This document shows, one piece after another, positions 8,845-14,968 of a stretch of 39,347 bases of DNA. Under the pieces are notes generated by a model. That model ran no database searches. It saw nothing but the letters and a program-made list of their open reading frames with translations, and was not told the DNA's origin. The position numbers and the translations under genes are program-made. Source of the DNA: Opitutales bacterium (lineage in GTDB: Bacteria; Verrucomicrobiota; Verrucomicrobiia; Opitutales; JAFGAQ01); contig JAFGAQ010000180.1 in assembly GCA_016933595.1 (NCBI GenBank), positions 1-39,347 on the forward strand. Direction: 5' to 3'. Numbering within the stretch: position 1 is the stretch's first letter; each line of letters begins with the position of its first letter.

Positions 8845-9330
8845 TCAGGACTTCTTGGATGCCGAAGCCTTGCTTGCCTTCGGAGCTTTCGGCAGAGTCG
8901 AACGGATCATCCACAACGCTTTTTCAAGCCATTGAATGTGATCTCCGTAGAGATTGCCCGTCGGGATGTCCCCTGCTTCATCCGCCATCCCATTGATCTT
9001 CTGAGCATCCTTGAGCAATACCTCGAAGTCAGCTTCCACCGCCTTGAGCACCTGCTCAGCCGTGAAACAATCCCCGCTCTCCTCTTTCAGAGAAGCGTTG
9101 TCGAGGTAGTCTTTTACCTTAGCAAAAGGCTTTGATCCCTTCTGGAGAATCCTTTCGGCCACATCATCGAAAAAGCCAAAAAAATACTCATAGTATTTCT
9201 CGGTCAGTTCATGAATGCCAAAAAACTGCAGTCCACTCACGTTCCAGTGGTAGTTATGCAGCTTGATATTGATCACATGCAAATCCGCCAGGTTGCAGTT
9301 CATCGCTGACACAAGGTCTTTTTTACTCAT
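8845..9330 (-). CDS. dps: Dps-family ferritin-like DNA-protecting protein
   Basis: This is a 161-residue Dps: a cytoplasmic dodecamer that oxidises and stores iron and binds DNA under starvation or oxidative stress. Ferroxidase-site residues are recognisable: the HNYHWN His (about 28), the GIHELTEKYYE His (about 40) and the FDDVAERI Asp/Glu (about 55 and 59). Helix spacing is normal. The C-terminus is a Lys/Ser/Ala-rich tail (KAPKASKASASKKS), the sort of basic extension used for DNA binding in other Dps proteins. The ATG at 9330 has a GAAAGG ribosome-binding site about 8 nt upstream; an upstream frame extension to 9363 is not needed. It is divergent from pyrC, with an inverted repeat in the 161 bp between them. 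Confidence 0.93.
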   Translation of the reverse strand: MSKKDLVSAMNCNLADLHVINIKLHNYHWNVSGLQFFGIHELTEKYYEYFFGFFDDVAERILQKGSKPFAKVKDYLDNASLKEESGDCFTAEQVLKAVEADFEVLLKDAQKINGMADEAGDIPTGNLYGDHIQWLEKALWMIRSTLPKAPKASKASASKKS

Positions 9331-9375
9331 AATCGCTTTCCTTTCGAATAGTTGAGTTATCACACGCTACCAAAA

Positions 9376-9491: not shown

Positions 9492-10832
9492 ATGAAAAAC
9501 AGCTTTAGCATCCTGAATGCCAGGATCGTCAACGAGGGCACTATTGTCACTGGCGATGTAATTGTTGAGCATGGACGCATCGCGTCCATTGGTTCTTCCA
9601 CTCCAAACCAACGTAAAGGAAGCATTCTGGATGCCCGGGGCGCTTGGTTGATTCCGGGTCTCATCGACGATCAGGTCCACTTCCGGGAGCCCGGGTTTCC
9701 CGAAAAGGCATGCATCCGCACCGAATCAATGGCTGCGGTCGCCGGTGGAGTCACTGCCTACATGGAGATGCCCAACACTCGCCCGACAACCACCGATCAT
9801 GCGCGTTGGCAGGAGAAAATGGACATCGGCGCAAAGGATTCCTATGCACACTACGGATTCTACCTCGGGGCCACAAACGACAATTTGGAGGAAATCCGCA
9901 AGGCCGATCCCAAGCGCATCCCCGGTATCAAAGTTTTCATGGGCTCCTCTACCGGAAACATGCGGGTATCCGATCCGGACATCCTCGAAGCTGTGTTCAA
10001 GGCAAGCCCGACTCTCGTGGCCACCCATTGCGAAGACGATGACATCATTGCCCGGAATATGGCGGTTTTCGAACAACGCTACGGAGCCGACATCCCGGCG
10101 GAGTGCCATCCCGACATCAGAACCCGTGAGGCTTGCCTGGCTTCGTCCAGTCTCGCTGTAGAGCTTGCCCGGAGGCACAACACACGCCTGCACGTGTTAC
10201 ACATTACGACCCGCGACGAGCTCCAGCTCTTCGATTCCGGACCAGTTGAAGCAAAATCGATTACCTGCGAAGCGTGCGTGCATCATCTCTTCTTCAATGA
10301 CAAGGACTACGCCACGCTTGGGCACCGGCTCAAATGCAACCCATCGGTCAAGCGGGAATCGGACCGTCAGGCCTTGTTGCAAGCATTGCGGGATGACCGT
10401 ATCGACGTCATCGCGACTGACCATGCGCCCCACACCGTTTCGGAAAAAAGCCAACCCTACAAATCCGCTCCATCCGGGCTCCCGCTAGTTCAGCACTCCC
10501 TTCCCGTTCTACTTGATCTGGTTGCCCAAGGGGCGCTGGATATTCAAACGGTCGTATCCAAGACCAGCCATGCGGTAGCCAAACGATTCGGTATTCCCCA
10601 CAGGGGCTACATCCGCGAAGGGTATTGGGCGGATCTCGTTCTTTGCGCAATTGAGCCTCCCAAACAGGAGGATTCCAACCCGATTATTCTGTCAAAGTGC
10701 GGTTGGTCTCCCTTCGAGCGCTACCCGCTTCGAGGCAAGGTTTTGAGCACCATTATCGACGGACAACTCGTTTGGGACGGACAACGCATTTGCGGAAAAC
10801 CCGATGTGCAACCGCTGAATTTTGCTCAATGA
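9492..10832 (+). CDS. pyrC: Dihydroorotase (type I)
   Basis: It catalyses reversible cyclisation of N-carbamoyl-L-aspartate to dihydroorotate in pyrimidine synthesis. The 446 residues show the amidohydrolase fold: LIDDQVHFREPG (about 57-68), MEMPNTRPT, the carboxylated-Lys region IKVFMGSSTGN, HCEDD, LHITT and the C-terminal ATDHAPHT with the catalytic Asp. The first His of the usual HxH metal motif is a Gln (Q61). I recall this same DDQVHFREPG form in a Bacteroidetes dihydroorotase clade, so I still expect dihydroorotase rather than an allantoinase or an inactive homologue. A TTG at 9486 is an alternative start. The last 4 bp overlap the next gene (ATGA), so the two are probably translationally coupled. 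Confidence 0.88.
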   Translation: MKNSFSILNARIVNEGTIVTGDVIVEHGRIASIGSSTPNQRKGSILDARGAWLIPGLIDDQVHFREPGFPEKACIRTESMAAVAGGVTAYMEMPNTRPTTTDHARWQEKMDIGAKDSYAHYGFYLGATNDNLEEIRKADPKRIPGIKVFMGSSTGNMRVSDPDILEAVFKASPTLVATHCEDDDIIARNMAVFEQRYGADIPAECHPDIRTREACLASSSLAVELARRHNTRLHVLHITTRDELQLFDSGPVEAKSITCEACVHHLFFNDKDYATLGHRLKCNPSVKRESDRQALLQALRDDRIDVIATDHAPHTVSEKSQPYKSAPSGLPLVQHSLPVLLDLVAQGALDIQTVVSKTSHAVAKRFGIPHRGYIREGYWADLVLCAIEPPKQEDSNPIILSKCGWSPFERYPLRGKVLSTIIDGQLVWDGQRICGKPDVQPLNFAQ

Positions 10833-12760
10833 GTCTCGCTGAAAGTCTTTTTCAAAGGATCGCCGACTTTCTCGACGACTACCCACCTTTCCAATACCTT
10901 GGAAAAGAGGATCTTCTGCGGATTGCCCGCCTCGTTAAAATCAAATTTCATGAAAGAGACGAAACGATTTTCGAGGAGAACACGCCACGCAGAAACCTAT
11001 TCTACGTGATCCACAACGGGAGCGTAAGGGTATTCAACCGCAAAGGGAAAAAGCACCAGCTTCGGGATATCCGGGTGGAAGGCGAACTGCTCGGGATCGG
11101 GCACATCTCAGGATTACCCCATTACACCCAATCCGCTGTCGCCGAAAACGACACCATTCTTTACTCCATTCCCTGGGAGCCGTTTTCCCAACTGCTTCCC
11201 GCCTACCCGGATGTGATGCGCTTCCTGCGGGCCAACACCTCGCTCCATCCCGAATCCCGATCCTGGGGGGGTGCCGCAAGCGAAATGCTACCCGGTGATC
11301 CGGGAGCCGACACATTGGTGGGGCACATCAATGAAACCACCTATCTTCCCCAGATTGTTCAAAAGCGTTTTCTGGCCTGCCAAACGAACGACACACTTCA
11401 GGAAGCGGCTTTCAAGATGCTTCAAAATGAACTTGAAGCCATCATTGTCGTTGATCCGGACGGCACGCCGAAGGGCATGATCACCAAGACCGACATGACA
11501 CGATGCGTTCAGTCGGGACGCTTACCCCGCAAAGCGCTCGCAAAGGAGTTTATGAGCGCTCCTGTGATCACAGTCGGCGAAAACCCGCGCTTGGGAGACT
11601 GCATGCGGCTTATGCTCAAAAGCGCTTGCCGGTTTCTCTGCATGACGAAGGATGGCAGCGCGTTCACACCCGCGACAGGTGTGATCTCCGAAAGGGATCT
11701 CATGCTCTACTATGGGAACAACCCCATGGTCATCATCCGGCAAATCGGAATATCGGACAACTTTGAGGAGCTCACCCACCTTCGATACCGCGCGGATATG
11801 CTCATGCTGAACGAGCTCCGCAGCGTGGACGCCATACTATGGTTCTCCGAAGTTGTCCACGACCTCAACTGTGCCTTTGCAAGACGCGTGATTGAACTTG
11901 CCCAGGCCGACCTGAGAGCCGAGGGATACTTCCCTCCCGATGTCCACCTTTGCTGGATGGCCGCCGGAGCCGGGGGCCGCAAAGAGCTGTTCACCCGGAC
12001 CGCAATGGACCGGGGAATGGTTTACAAAGCCCTTTCGAGTGCTGCGGAATCCCATGCTGCGGATTACGCGACGCGCCTCGCACACACCCTCTCCAACGGC
12101 TTGCTCAAATGCGGCTGGACGCCCAATACCAGGCAGATGACAGAGGCCAATATCCAATGGAACCGTTCCCTCTCCGACTGGGAAGCCTACTTCCATCAAT
12201 GGATCAACCACACGCTGGACGATGAGCTTCCCTCGGTACTGCCATGGTTTGATGCCCTCCCGATTGCGGGAAACGATTACTTGGTCGACAGTTTCCAAAG
12301 CGTGCTCGTGCGAGAGATTGCCAGCCACCCCGCTTTCATCCGGAGGCTGGCTTCCGTAACCATCACATCGATTCCTAAACCCGAAGAGTATGAGGCCTTC
12401 TCAACCCGCGAAAACCGTCTAGGTGAGCGGCGTTTCGACATCAGCCATTCCGTGCTTCAGCCGCTCAGCCACCTGGCGAGGCTTTTCGCCCTAAAAGAAG
12501 GAATCGTCAAACACACTTCGACAATCGATCGTCTCAACAAGCTTGCAAAGACTTCAGCGGCCCATCGGGCGCTCTTTGAGGATGCGGCGGAGGGGTTCAA
12601 GATCGCGCTTTTTTGTTCAGCCAAAACCGGTCTGCGCGAACAAAGCCCGGGGAATCTGATCGAGCCCGCTACCCTCACCGGAATTGAACAGCAATCTATC
12701 AAGTCCACATTCCGTTCCATCTTCGAGCTCCAAAACCTGGCGGAAACGCTCGTGTCATAA
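10829..12760 (+). CDS. Cyclic-nucleotide-binding/CBS/DUF294 protein with degenerate nucleotidyltransferase site
   Basis: This is a 643-residue regulatory-type protein. Residues about 10-145 form a cNMP-binding domain (FHERDETIFEENTPRRNLFY...HNGSVRVF). About 190-320 form a CBS pair (TNDTLQEAAFKMLQNELEAI and SAPVITVGENPRLGDCMRLM). Then come the DUF294 putative nucleotidyltransferase domain and its C-terminal DUF294_C helical part (to about 640). The usual motif G-S-x-G-R-x-E-Q-x-x-x-T-D-Q-D-N reads GAGGRKELFTRTAMDRG here (residues 380-396). One of the two metal-binding Asp residues is Ala392 and the Ser is Ala381, so nucleotidyl transfer may be lost or changed. It overlaps pyrC by ATGA and precedes a DEDDh exonuclease by 16 bp, a neighbour pairing I recall from other bacteria. 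Its role is unknown; sensing of cNMP and adenine-nucleotide status is inference. Confidence 0.85.
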   Translation: MSLAESLFQRIADFLDDYPPFQYLGKEDLLRIARLVKIKFHERDETIFEENTPRRNLFYVIHNGSVRVFNRKGKKHQLRDIRVEGELLGIGHISGLPHYTQSAVAENDTILYSIPWEPFSQLLPAYPDVMRFLRANTSLHPESRSWGGAASEMLPGDPGADTLVGHINETTYLPQIVQKRFLACQTNDTLQEAAFKMLQNELEAIIVVDPDGTPKGMITKTDMTRCVQSGRLPRKALAKEFMSAPVITVGENPRLGDCMRLMLKSACRFLCMTKDGSAFTPATGVISERDLMLYYGNNPMVIIRQIGISDNFEELTHLRYRADMLMLNELRSVDAILWFSEVVHDLNCAFARRVIELAQADLRAEGYFPPDVHLCWMAAGAGGRKELFTRTAMDRGMVYKALSSAAESHAADYATRLAHTLSNGLLKCGWTPNTRQMTEANIQWNRSLSDWEAYFHQWINHTLDDELPSVLPWFDALPIAGNDYLVDSFQSVLVREIASHPAFIRRLASVTITSIPKPEEYEAFSTRENRLGERRFDISHSVLQPLSHLARLFALKEGIVKHTSTIDRLNKLAKTSAAHRALFEDAAEGFKIALFCSAKTGLREQSPGNLIEPATLTGIEQQSIKSTFRSIFELQNLAETLVS

Positions 12761-12776
12761 CTCCGCCACCATAACC

Positions 12777-13475
12777 ATGGACCACTCCTCGCTATCCCAC
12801 CAACCGCACAAGGCTCTGGACCCTGTGGTGCTCCCTTCGAGGTGGGTCGTTCTCGATACCGAAACCACCGGAGTCATCGCAACGCGTGACCAAATCGTAT
12901 CGATCGGTGCGGTTGCGGTTTCGGACGCTGAAATTCAACCCCAGGATTCTTTTGAATGCGTCATTCGCCAACCCTACAACAGCTCCTCTGTTGTGGTTCA
13001 CGGTATCACCCAGGACGAAAGCGAGCGCCGGGGAACCAGTGAATCGGAGGCGCTGCTGGCTTTCAGCGAATACATCAAAGACGCTTGTCTGGTGGGTCAT
13101 CATGTCGAATTTGACGTGACGATTCTCAACCACAGAATGAAGCACAAAACCGGACGGGTAGTCTCCAACCCATTCCTCGACACCATGGAACTCGTCATTG
13201 CCATGGAAGAGGCAAAATGGATCGACCCAAGGCCCTCCCCTAATGACTTTGGACTCGATGCCCTATGCCGCCACTTCAATGTCAAACGCAGTGGACGCCA
13301 TACCGCACCGGGAGATGCTTTCATTACGGCACTGATTTTCATCCGCTTGCTCAGCATCGCCGCGAACCGCGAACCGGATATGGTCCGCCGACTCATTCAC
13401 CCGGGAATCCCGCCGTCAGAAAAGGATCGGGTTTCTAAACCAGGAAGCAACGGGCAGGAGGAAAAAAAAGCATAA
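12777..13475 (+). CDS. DEDDh 3'-5' exonuclease (DnaQ/epsilon-like)
   Basis: This 232-residue stand-alone exonuclease is related to DNA polymerase III epsilon. All catalytic positions are visible: DTETTG (D27, E29), HHVEFDVTIL (D113) and HTAPGDA (H175, D180), so activity is expected. There is no polymerase-binding clamp motif or additional domain apart from short N- and C-terminal tails (basic KKA end). The frame is open to 12684, but the ATG at 12777 lies just after the preceding gene's stop at 12760 and leaves about 20 residues before the exonuclease strand. It is the third gene of the pyrC operon. Whether it degrades DNA or RNA is unknown; it may act with the cNMP/CBS protein. Confidence 0.87.
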   Translation: MDHSSLSHQPHKALDPVVLPSRWVVLDTETTGVIATRDQIVSIGAVAVSDAEIQPQDSFECVIRQPYNSSSVVVHGITQDESERRGTSESEALLAFSEYIKDACLVGHHVEFDVTILNHRMKHKTGRVVSNPFLDTMELVIAMEEAKWIDPRPSPNDFGLDALCRHFNVKRSGRHTAPGDAFITALIFIRLLSIAANREPDMVRRLIHPGIPPSEKDRVSKPGSNGQEEKKA

Positions 13476-13487
13476 GCTCCGGTTTAA

Positions 13488-14561
13488 TCAATCCGATGCG
13501 CCACCCGCGAGACTAACGGGCTCAGCCTGCTTGAGCCTTAGAGCAGTCCGCACCCCTTCGCCGGGGCGCTTGATCCCGAAAATCTGGGCCTGAATCGGGG
13601 CTTCAATATGAGCCAAAAGCTCCATGTGTCCGCGTTGATCGGCTACCACGCTGCGCAACACCTCCGACAACGGCATCTTTCCAGTGAGTTCCAAATAGTA
13701 AGGAATCAGCCATTCACCGATGCCCAGCTTTCCCGCCAGATAATGAACATATGCCTTCGGGTGAAAGCTTTCGCTGAACAGAAGCATGGAAGCCTCATAA
13801 GTCGTCCACTGACCGACACTCAAATCCTCCGAATGCCTCAGGTAATTAAGAACATCGGACTCCCAACGCAAGATTTCGGAAAGCTTGGAGTCATCCATGA
13901 CGAGCTGCACTTCACCAGCAGAAGGCACAGCCACAACCGAAGCCACCACTTGGGACACTTCTTTATCGGACACACCACCCTTGGCATTCCGCCATTCCAT
14001 CTCCTTACGGTAGGCCGCTTCGTAGATTTCTGCAAAACGCTCGTTTGAGACCGAAACCCCGATCCGATGCATCACGCGCTTGCGAATTTCAAGAACAAGA
14101 TCCTGAACCCGGACTTTTTTCATGTAAATGCGGGTCACGCCAGGACGCGTCTCCATGCCTTCCCCATGCGGAGCATCGGTAACCGTGATTTCCTCACCGG
14201 TCGGGAAGAAAACGCTCAACTCGACAAATACTCCCATTCCGTCATGCCGGTGCAAAACGGCCAAGATGTGATCCGTCGGGCAGCACAAACCCATTAGCCG
14301 CACTCCGGACAACTCCGACACCCGATAGCAATCGCCTTTTTCAAAACCCAGATGCTCCAGAATCCGAATCGCGGACTGCGCCCGCGGATGACGGATCCAC
14401 ATGGGCTTGGCGTCTTTTACCAAAGTGACTTCTGAAGGCGAGCCTTGAAGCGATGCACGGATCTTGTGCAGGTAACGACCCTTCCACAAAAGGACGGATC
14501 CACCAACAGCGGAAATGACGATCAAGCCAAAAAAGGCAATACCCAATACTTGAAAAAACAT
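13488..14561 (-). CDS. Unrecognised membrane-anchored protein
   Basis: This 357-residue protein starts with one hydrophobic helix (FFQVLGIAFFGLIVISAVGG) followed by a basic LLWKGRYLHKI stretch, so it is probably a type II or N-in anchor. The rest is soluble. An N-terminal part of mixed beta character (VTLVKDAKPMWIRHPRAQSA, residues about 50-180) is followed by a mainly helical C-terminal half (residues about 180-340) rich in Glu, Ala and Leu. I recognise no catalytic motif, and no cysteine cluster is seen. The frame opens upstream (14648), but the ATG at 14561 gives a clean anchor. It is convergent with the exonuclease gene (12 bp between stops) and faces the AT-rich region upstream. I would call it a conserved or lineage-specific hypothetical protein. 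Confidence 0.72.
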   Translation of the reverse strand: MFFQVLGIAFFGLIVISAVGGSVLLWKGRYLHKIRASLQGSPSEVTLVKDAKPMWIRHPRAQSAIRILEHLGFEKGDCYRVSELSGVRLMGLCCPTDHILAVLHRHDGMGVFVELSVFFPTGEEITVTDAPHGEGMETRPGVTRIYMKKVRVQDLVLEIRKRVMHRIGVSVSNERFAEIYEAAYRKEMEWRNAKGGVSDKEVSQVVASVVAVPSAGEVQLVMDDSKLSEILRWESDVLNYLRHSEDLSVGQWTTYEASMLLFSESFHPKAYVHYLAGKLGIGEWLIPYYLELTGKMPLSEVLRSVVADQRGHMELLAHIEAPIQAQIFGIKRPGEGVRTALRLKQAEPVSLAGGASD

Positions 14562-14968
14562 GGCTCGCAGGGGGTTGAAATTACGATGCAAGAAAAATCT
14601 TGCATAAAAATTCATTAAAAAAAAGCAAAAAGTATAATCAAAATGCATTATTAATGAATTCCACCAAATCCGGCGAATTTAACGCACCTTTCACAAATGA
14701 GCGCCACTATCAATGGAACATGATAATCTCTTGTGTTAATATCATAAACACATTACTTCACACGGAGACGCTATGAACCCGCTTTAGCGTTACATCATTT
14801 TGTCATCTTTACTAACTAAAACACCAACAACGAGTGATCCGGCATGCTCAATCCAACAGAAAAAGTCCCCCAAGGCTTGCCTCATCCCGTAAAATGCCCT
14901 AGTTGCCTTTCTGGAAGCGTCTTCCCGCACCCGTCTGGACACGGTGCACTCCAACTTCGGATTATCAT
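14562..14968. other. AT-rich intergenic region with inverted repeats, divergent starts (407 bp)
   Basis: This stretch separates the start of the unknown protein (minus) from the GT4 gene (plus). Its left half (14580-14760) is far more AT-rich than the surroundings. A perfect 8 bp inverted repeat with 4 nt spacer lies at 14586-14605 (ATGCAAGA/TCTTGCAT). Another inverted pair is AATTCATTAA at 14609-14618 with TTAATGAATT at 14651-14660. A TATAAT box occurs on the plus strand at 14633-14638, with no good -35. Only tiny open frames are seen. It probably holds promoters and operator sites for the flanking genes. Confidence 0.55.
14586..14605. repeat. Perfect 8 bp inverted repeat in AT-rich region
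   Basis: ATGCAAGA-AAAA-TCTTGCAT is a fully palindromic stem with a 4 nt centre, about 25 bp upstream of the unknown gene's start. It is plausible as a regulator dimer site. In such AT-rich DNA a chance palindrome of this length is less surprising than in the rest of the window. Confidence 0.5.

Follow-up and report, generated by a model that had tools for sequence, protein, structure and literature searches.

Organisation of the locus

The window analysed here is a stretch of 39,347 nucleotides from an Opitutales bacterium (GenBank assembly GCA_016933595.1, contig JAFGAQ010000180.1). A search of the assembly yielded no 16S gene, and the taxonomic placement is drawn from related genomes. Within it, pyrC, a gene encoding a DUF294 protein and an exonuclease gene lie head to tail on the same strand, with the following features.

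9492..10832 (+): pyrC, dihydroorotase, 446 aa (NF006688, 650 bits against a cut-off of 535)
10829..10832 (+): ATGA overlap of the pyrC stop and the DUF294 start, read from the sequence and the same in the other four genomes of the family
10829..12760 (+): cNMP-CBS-CBS-DUF294-DUF294_C protein, 643 aa, predicted pseudo-nucleotidyltransferase regulator (Pfam, AlphaFold2, dN/dS)
10949..11197 (+): cNMP-binding fold, residues 41-123, without the canonical Glu and Arg cAMP contacts
11354..11701 (+): CBS pair, residues 176-291, both G-h-h-S/T-x-x-D motifs present
11951..12028 (+): degenerate nucleotidyltransferase (NTase) motif CWMAAGAGGRKELFTRTAMDRGMVYK, with the first catalytic Asp and the GS lost
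12332..12745 (+): DUF294_C helical domain, residues 502-639, HEPN/KNTase_C clan (Pfam; clan from PMC3710099)
12777..13475 (+): DEDDh 3'-5' exonuclease, 232 aa (RNase_T, DEDDh residues, predicted fold)

The TGA stop codon of pyrC (10830-10832) overlaps the ATG of the DUF294 gene (start 10829, stop 12758-12760), and a gap of 16 bp precedes the exonuclease gene (start ATG 12777, stop 13473-13475), in agreement with the overlap and spacing given in an earlier note on this DNA. On the basis of this overlap and spacing, we infer that the three genes form one transcript; promoter and terminator scans of the region stayed at chance level. On the opposite strand, a ferritin-like (Dps-type) gene (8845-9363, -) is divergent from pyrC, and a 386-aa open reading frame without a Pfam match (13488-14648, -) is convergent with the exonuclease gene; an open reading frame of equal length lies there in the same-genus genome G001.

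Known relatives of the module

The DUF294-exonuclease pair is already known from Pseudomonas. In P. putida, ErdR binds the promoter of an operon made up of pp_0354 and pp_0353. A strain lacking the exonuclease gene grows more slowly on pyruvate, and deletion of the DUF294 gene is not reported to cause a defect on acetate or succinate (PMC9927547). In P. fluorescens, Pflu5625 belongs to the CrbS/R (MxtR/ErdR) regulon, and its deletion has no phenotype (PMC5715377). The Pseudomonas pair has a genetic phenotype but no known mechanism, and since the exonuclease phenotype comes without a reported DUF294 defect, dependence of the exonuclease on the DUF294 protein is not demonstrated even in this known case.

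The window's pair belongs to the same module: its protein carries cNMP, two CBS and DUF294_C domains, and an RNase_T/DEDDh exonuclease lies directly downstream on the same strand. Compared by description rather than by sequence, the Pseudomonas pairs likewise place a CBS/DUF294 gene before an RNase_T exonuclease gene in one operon (PMC9927547, PMC5715377). However, they lie near glcB or actP/yjcH under acetate two-component control, whereas the window's pair lies in a pyrC operon, has a degraded NTase motif and adjoins neither acs nor actP. The alphaproteobacterial acs-DUF4212/DUF485-actP-DUF294-(response regulator)-exonuclease clusters also combine a cNMP-CBS-DUF294 protein with a downstream exonuclease, but in an acetate context and with the NTase motif intact. 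One or two genes separate the two partners in Paracoccus, Ruegeria, Shinella and Agrobacterium. The exonucleases of these clusters (L129, L131, L134, L136 and L138) bear an N-terminal extension of 270-450 aa without a Pfam match, and in Paracoccus a response regulator precedes the exonuclease.

Conservation of the pair

How strictly are the two genes kept together? Across 52 genomes (the window's own and its order relatives), 14 full-length DUF294 genes and 14 exonuclease genes occur at the same 14 places, with no orphan of either; exonuclease matches were counted at 70 bits or more, and the next match reached 38 bits. A set of 289 Verrucomicrobiota genomes contains 35 DUF294_C genes that score above the cut-off. 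Every cNMP-type gene among them is followed by the exonuclease (24/24), and none of the 11 Cache-domain genes is accompanied by one. The Cache-type proteins (L078, L079, L081, L084-L090 and L092) have a distinct membrane-receptor architecture, nearly all with PAS, and a PHP domain is also found in L081, L084 and L090. Outside the phylum, where our sample consists of genome-contig matches and plasmid records, pairs occur in Acidobacteriota MAGs (L122-L127), in Pseudomonadota-labelled MAGs (L111 and L121) and in proteobacterial plasmid records (L129-L138); the exonuclease is missing only in L119, whose locus ends at a contig end. The suggestion of the earlier note that the pair is a conserved unit is borne out by this co-conservation in relatives and by its presence in several phyla, often beside acs/actP in Proteobacteria (PMC9927547).

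The two trees, each built from 60 pairs, are congruent. They share 38 of 57 splits, and in both the window's lineage, apart from clade B, makes up one side of a branch (support 99 for DUF294 and 92 for the exonuclease). The patristic distances correlate within clade A, which takes in the window's family plus other pairs (r 0.88), and within clade B (r 0.79), and none of 2000 permutations gave a value as high. This agreement arises in part from shared species history. Still, co-resident paralogous pairs keep their own partners: G002, G004, G136 and G309 each encode two paralogous cNMP-type DUF294 proteins, and the two exonucleases that go with them fall into separate clades in the same way.

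The surrounding genes vary (acs/actP, psd, kdgR, pyrC), whereas the pair itself is constant. A phosphatidylserine decarboxylase-like gene lies one or two genes upstream of the clade A pairs L066, L067, L106, L108, L110 and L113, all outside the window's family, and is confirmed by Pfam in L066, L067, L110 and L113. In the Vibrio plasmids L133 and L137, the order kdgR-DUF294-exonuclease occurs within a sugar-acid utilisation region.

The strict 1:1 pairing bears on the reading that the two proteins act independently and share only their regulation, for instance as genes that respond to the carbon or energy state, in an operon without physical contact. The Pseudomonas data speak for it, as the operon is a CrbR/ErdR target whose phenotype comes only from the exonuclease deletion (PMC9927547), and the Pflu5625 result fits as well (PMC5715377). 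Nevertheless, the lack of orphans, the separate partners of the paralogous pairs and the constancy of the pair among changing neighbours argue against it, and we regard independent action as somewhat unlikely.

The DUF294 protein has lost its transferase centre

The Pfam domains listed above, together with DUF294 at residues 340-462, all score above the curated cut-offs. The AlphaFold2 model of the protein has a mean pLDDT of 87.9 and a pTM of 0.87, and its fold matches include cNMP domains, CBS pairs and the GlnE adenylyltransferase. DUF294_C is listed as lacking the Rx4-6H motif of catalytic HEPN RNases (PMC3710099). An active transferase of the DUF294/GlnD type has GS and the two catalytic carboxylates of TDxD; in the window's protein, the GS..TDxD motif is replaced by AGAGGRKELFTRTAMD, which reads AG..TAMD at these positions. 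The earlier note had recognised the domains correctly, but had missed this loss.

The full motif, G-S-x-[GA]-R...[TSGP]-D-x-D, is kept in clade B, in other Verrucomicrobiota pairs, in the Cache types and in the sampled proteobacterial proteins. Of the 32 members of the window's lineage (Verrucomicrobiota and Acidobacteriota), 31 have lost the first Asp of TDxD. The window's family has AG..TAMD, other Verrucomicrobiota have HS..S[SA]QR, GS..SAVY or AAQE, and the Acidobacteriota members have a degenerate NTase domain with motifs such as APPK. The exception, L111, retains GS and DLD. The DEDDh residues of the partner exonucleases are retained in all 32.

When the motif columns are excluded from the tree, these 32 members still fall on one side of a branch (support 99). 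Forcing the 31 motif-less members together, with L111 apart, gives a p-AU of 0.052. If the motif cannot be regained, the position of L111 implies two or three separate NTase losses; the test of these against a single loss is borderline.

The domain itself is not decaying. Against the same-genus G001, dN/dS is 0.046 for the whole DUF294 protein, 0.057 for the DUF294 (NTase) region and 0.081 for pyrC, and the values for the individual domains of the DUF294 protein range from 0.03 to 0.07. These ratios indicate strong purifying selection on the dead NTase domain. Moreover, Arg384 is invariant and Glu386 nearly so in an alignment of 22 sequences, which suggests a retained ligand-binding or structural role. 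The protein resembles the GlnD/GlnE-type nucleotidyltransferases in having the NTase fold and a helical C-terminal domain (1v4a, 3k7d), but differs from them in the loss of its catalytic residues and in that no link to glutamine synthetase or PII was seen.

These findings weigh on a further alternative, that the two proteins write and erase: the DUF294 protein would attach a nucleotide either to a protein or to the 3' ends of RNA or DNA, and the exonuclease would take it off again. The GlnE-like fold of the model and the intact GS..TDxD of clade B, of other Verrucomicrobiota pairs and of the sampled proteobacterial pairs favour such chemistry, which may be how the module originally worked and could still operate in the lineages with an intact motif. 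As the explanation for the module it is improbable, because the pairing persists in the window's lineage where the carboxylate motif is gone. The loss of the NTase centre beside an intact exonuclease suggests that regulation works through contact and not through chemistry.

Ligand sensing

In the cyclic nucleotide-binding domains of CRP and PKA, the Glu of the phosphate-binding cassette contacts the ribose of cAMP and an Arg contacts its phosphate. Both residues are absent in the window's family, where the corresponding segments in the window read LLGIGH and YTQSA; certain other members of clade A do have the Arg. In addition, a search of the family's five genomes for class III cyclases found none, the window's genome being only 78% complete. 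Cyclic-nucleotide sensing as the earlier note stated it is therefore not upheld. Each CBS domain keeps its nucleotide motif (GMITKTDM and GVISERDL), which makes an adenine nucleotide the likelier ligand of the DUF294 protein. In the Acidobacteriota members, recognisable CBS domains are gone while the exonuclease, DUF294_C and the cNMP fold remain, so CBS sensing is not indispensable to the module in all lineages.

The exonuclease

The exonuclease matches RNase_T above the Pfam cut-off (E=2e-23), and all five DEDDh residues (DxE, D and HxxxxD) are present, so that its description as intact stands. The model has a pLDDT of 82.4 and its nearest folds are the DnaQ and PolC exonuclease domains; the predicted fold is thus closest to DNA-type exonucleases. 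The best NCBIfam match is the PRK09145 family of 3'-5' exonucleases (NF006601), with 118 bits over the whole domain but below the family cut-off of 189. In G001, the exonuclease is 17 residues shorter and ends at a TAG stop (L061:2690-2800), and the C-terminal tail of the window's protein is not conserved.

The link to pyrC

The attachment to pyrC, singled out earlier as unusual, is confined to the window's family: pyrC-DUF294-exonuclease with the ATGA is found in each of the family's five genomes and in none of the other sampled genomes. The G001 assembly has pyrC on one contig and the pair on another, and the junction is present at the end of both. The DUF294 proteins of different genera in the family are only about 48% identical, and the flanking genes differ.

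A second locus elsewhere in the genome carries pyrR-pyrB-pyrC (G000:C386/C366; L141, L140). In all five family genomes (including L146-L149), the pyrB-linked PyrC has QxH for HxH and an Asn for a metal-ligand His. The best solved relative of the window's PyrC is the P. gingivalis dihydroorotase 2gwn (444 bits), with which it shares QVH, and the second metal-ligand His is retained. We considered the window's pyrC as a spare paralogue and rejected this, as it is the pyrB-linked copy that lacks the metal ligands. The window's pyrC is probably the catalytic dihydroorotase of the genome, and the pair would then share an operon with a working enzyme. With two metal-ligand His missing throughout the family's five genomes, the pyrB-linked PyrC seems to be a non-catalytic dihydroorotase that partners PyrB.

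The persistence of the ATGA arrangement despite the low DUF294 identity between genera and the changing flanks, together with the apparently catalytic nature of the linked PyrC, could suggest a pyrimidine-specific unit, which would respond to pyrimidine status and, when pyrC is expressed, recover nucleotides from nucleic acids. This is very unlikely, since the link occurs in one family only, every other sampled clade A pair is without pyrC, and several of them lie near psd, another unrelated housekeeping gene. The link may do no more than tie expression to biosynthetic growth.

Proposed mechanism

Sensing: We propose, with roughly even confidence, a two-protein sensor-nuclease module in which the DUF294 protein is a non-catalytic partner that gates the exonuclease. 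The CBS pair, probably with adenine nucleotides, and the degenerate cNMP fold would sense a small molecule.

Gating: The pseudo-NTase and the helical C-terminal domain would bind and gate the DEDDh exonuclease encoded by the next gene, the exonuclease being the effector and the DUF294 protein its regulatory subunit. The dead transferase and the strict pairing argue that, in this lineage at least, the conserved function is exonuclease regulation and not nucleotidylation.

Co-expression: In the window's family, the module would be co-expressed with dihydroorotase. The fuller picture, a pseudoenzyme dedicated to ligand-dependent DEDDh gating, possibly after two or three independent losses, with one family coupling nucleic-acid trimming to pyrimidine synthesis through a dihydroorotase operon, is unlikely.

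In the open-access literature, we found no description of the lineage with a pseudo-transferase, of the 1:1 strictness of the pairing or of the operon with pyrC; to that extent, the NTase loss beside an intact exonuclease in the window's lineage and the housing of a known module in a pyrC operon are new. The genomes that carry a dead-type pair alongside an intact-type one provide a built-in comparison for partner specificity.
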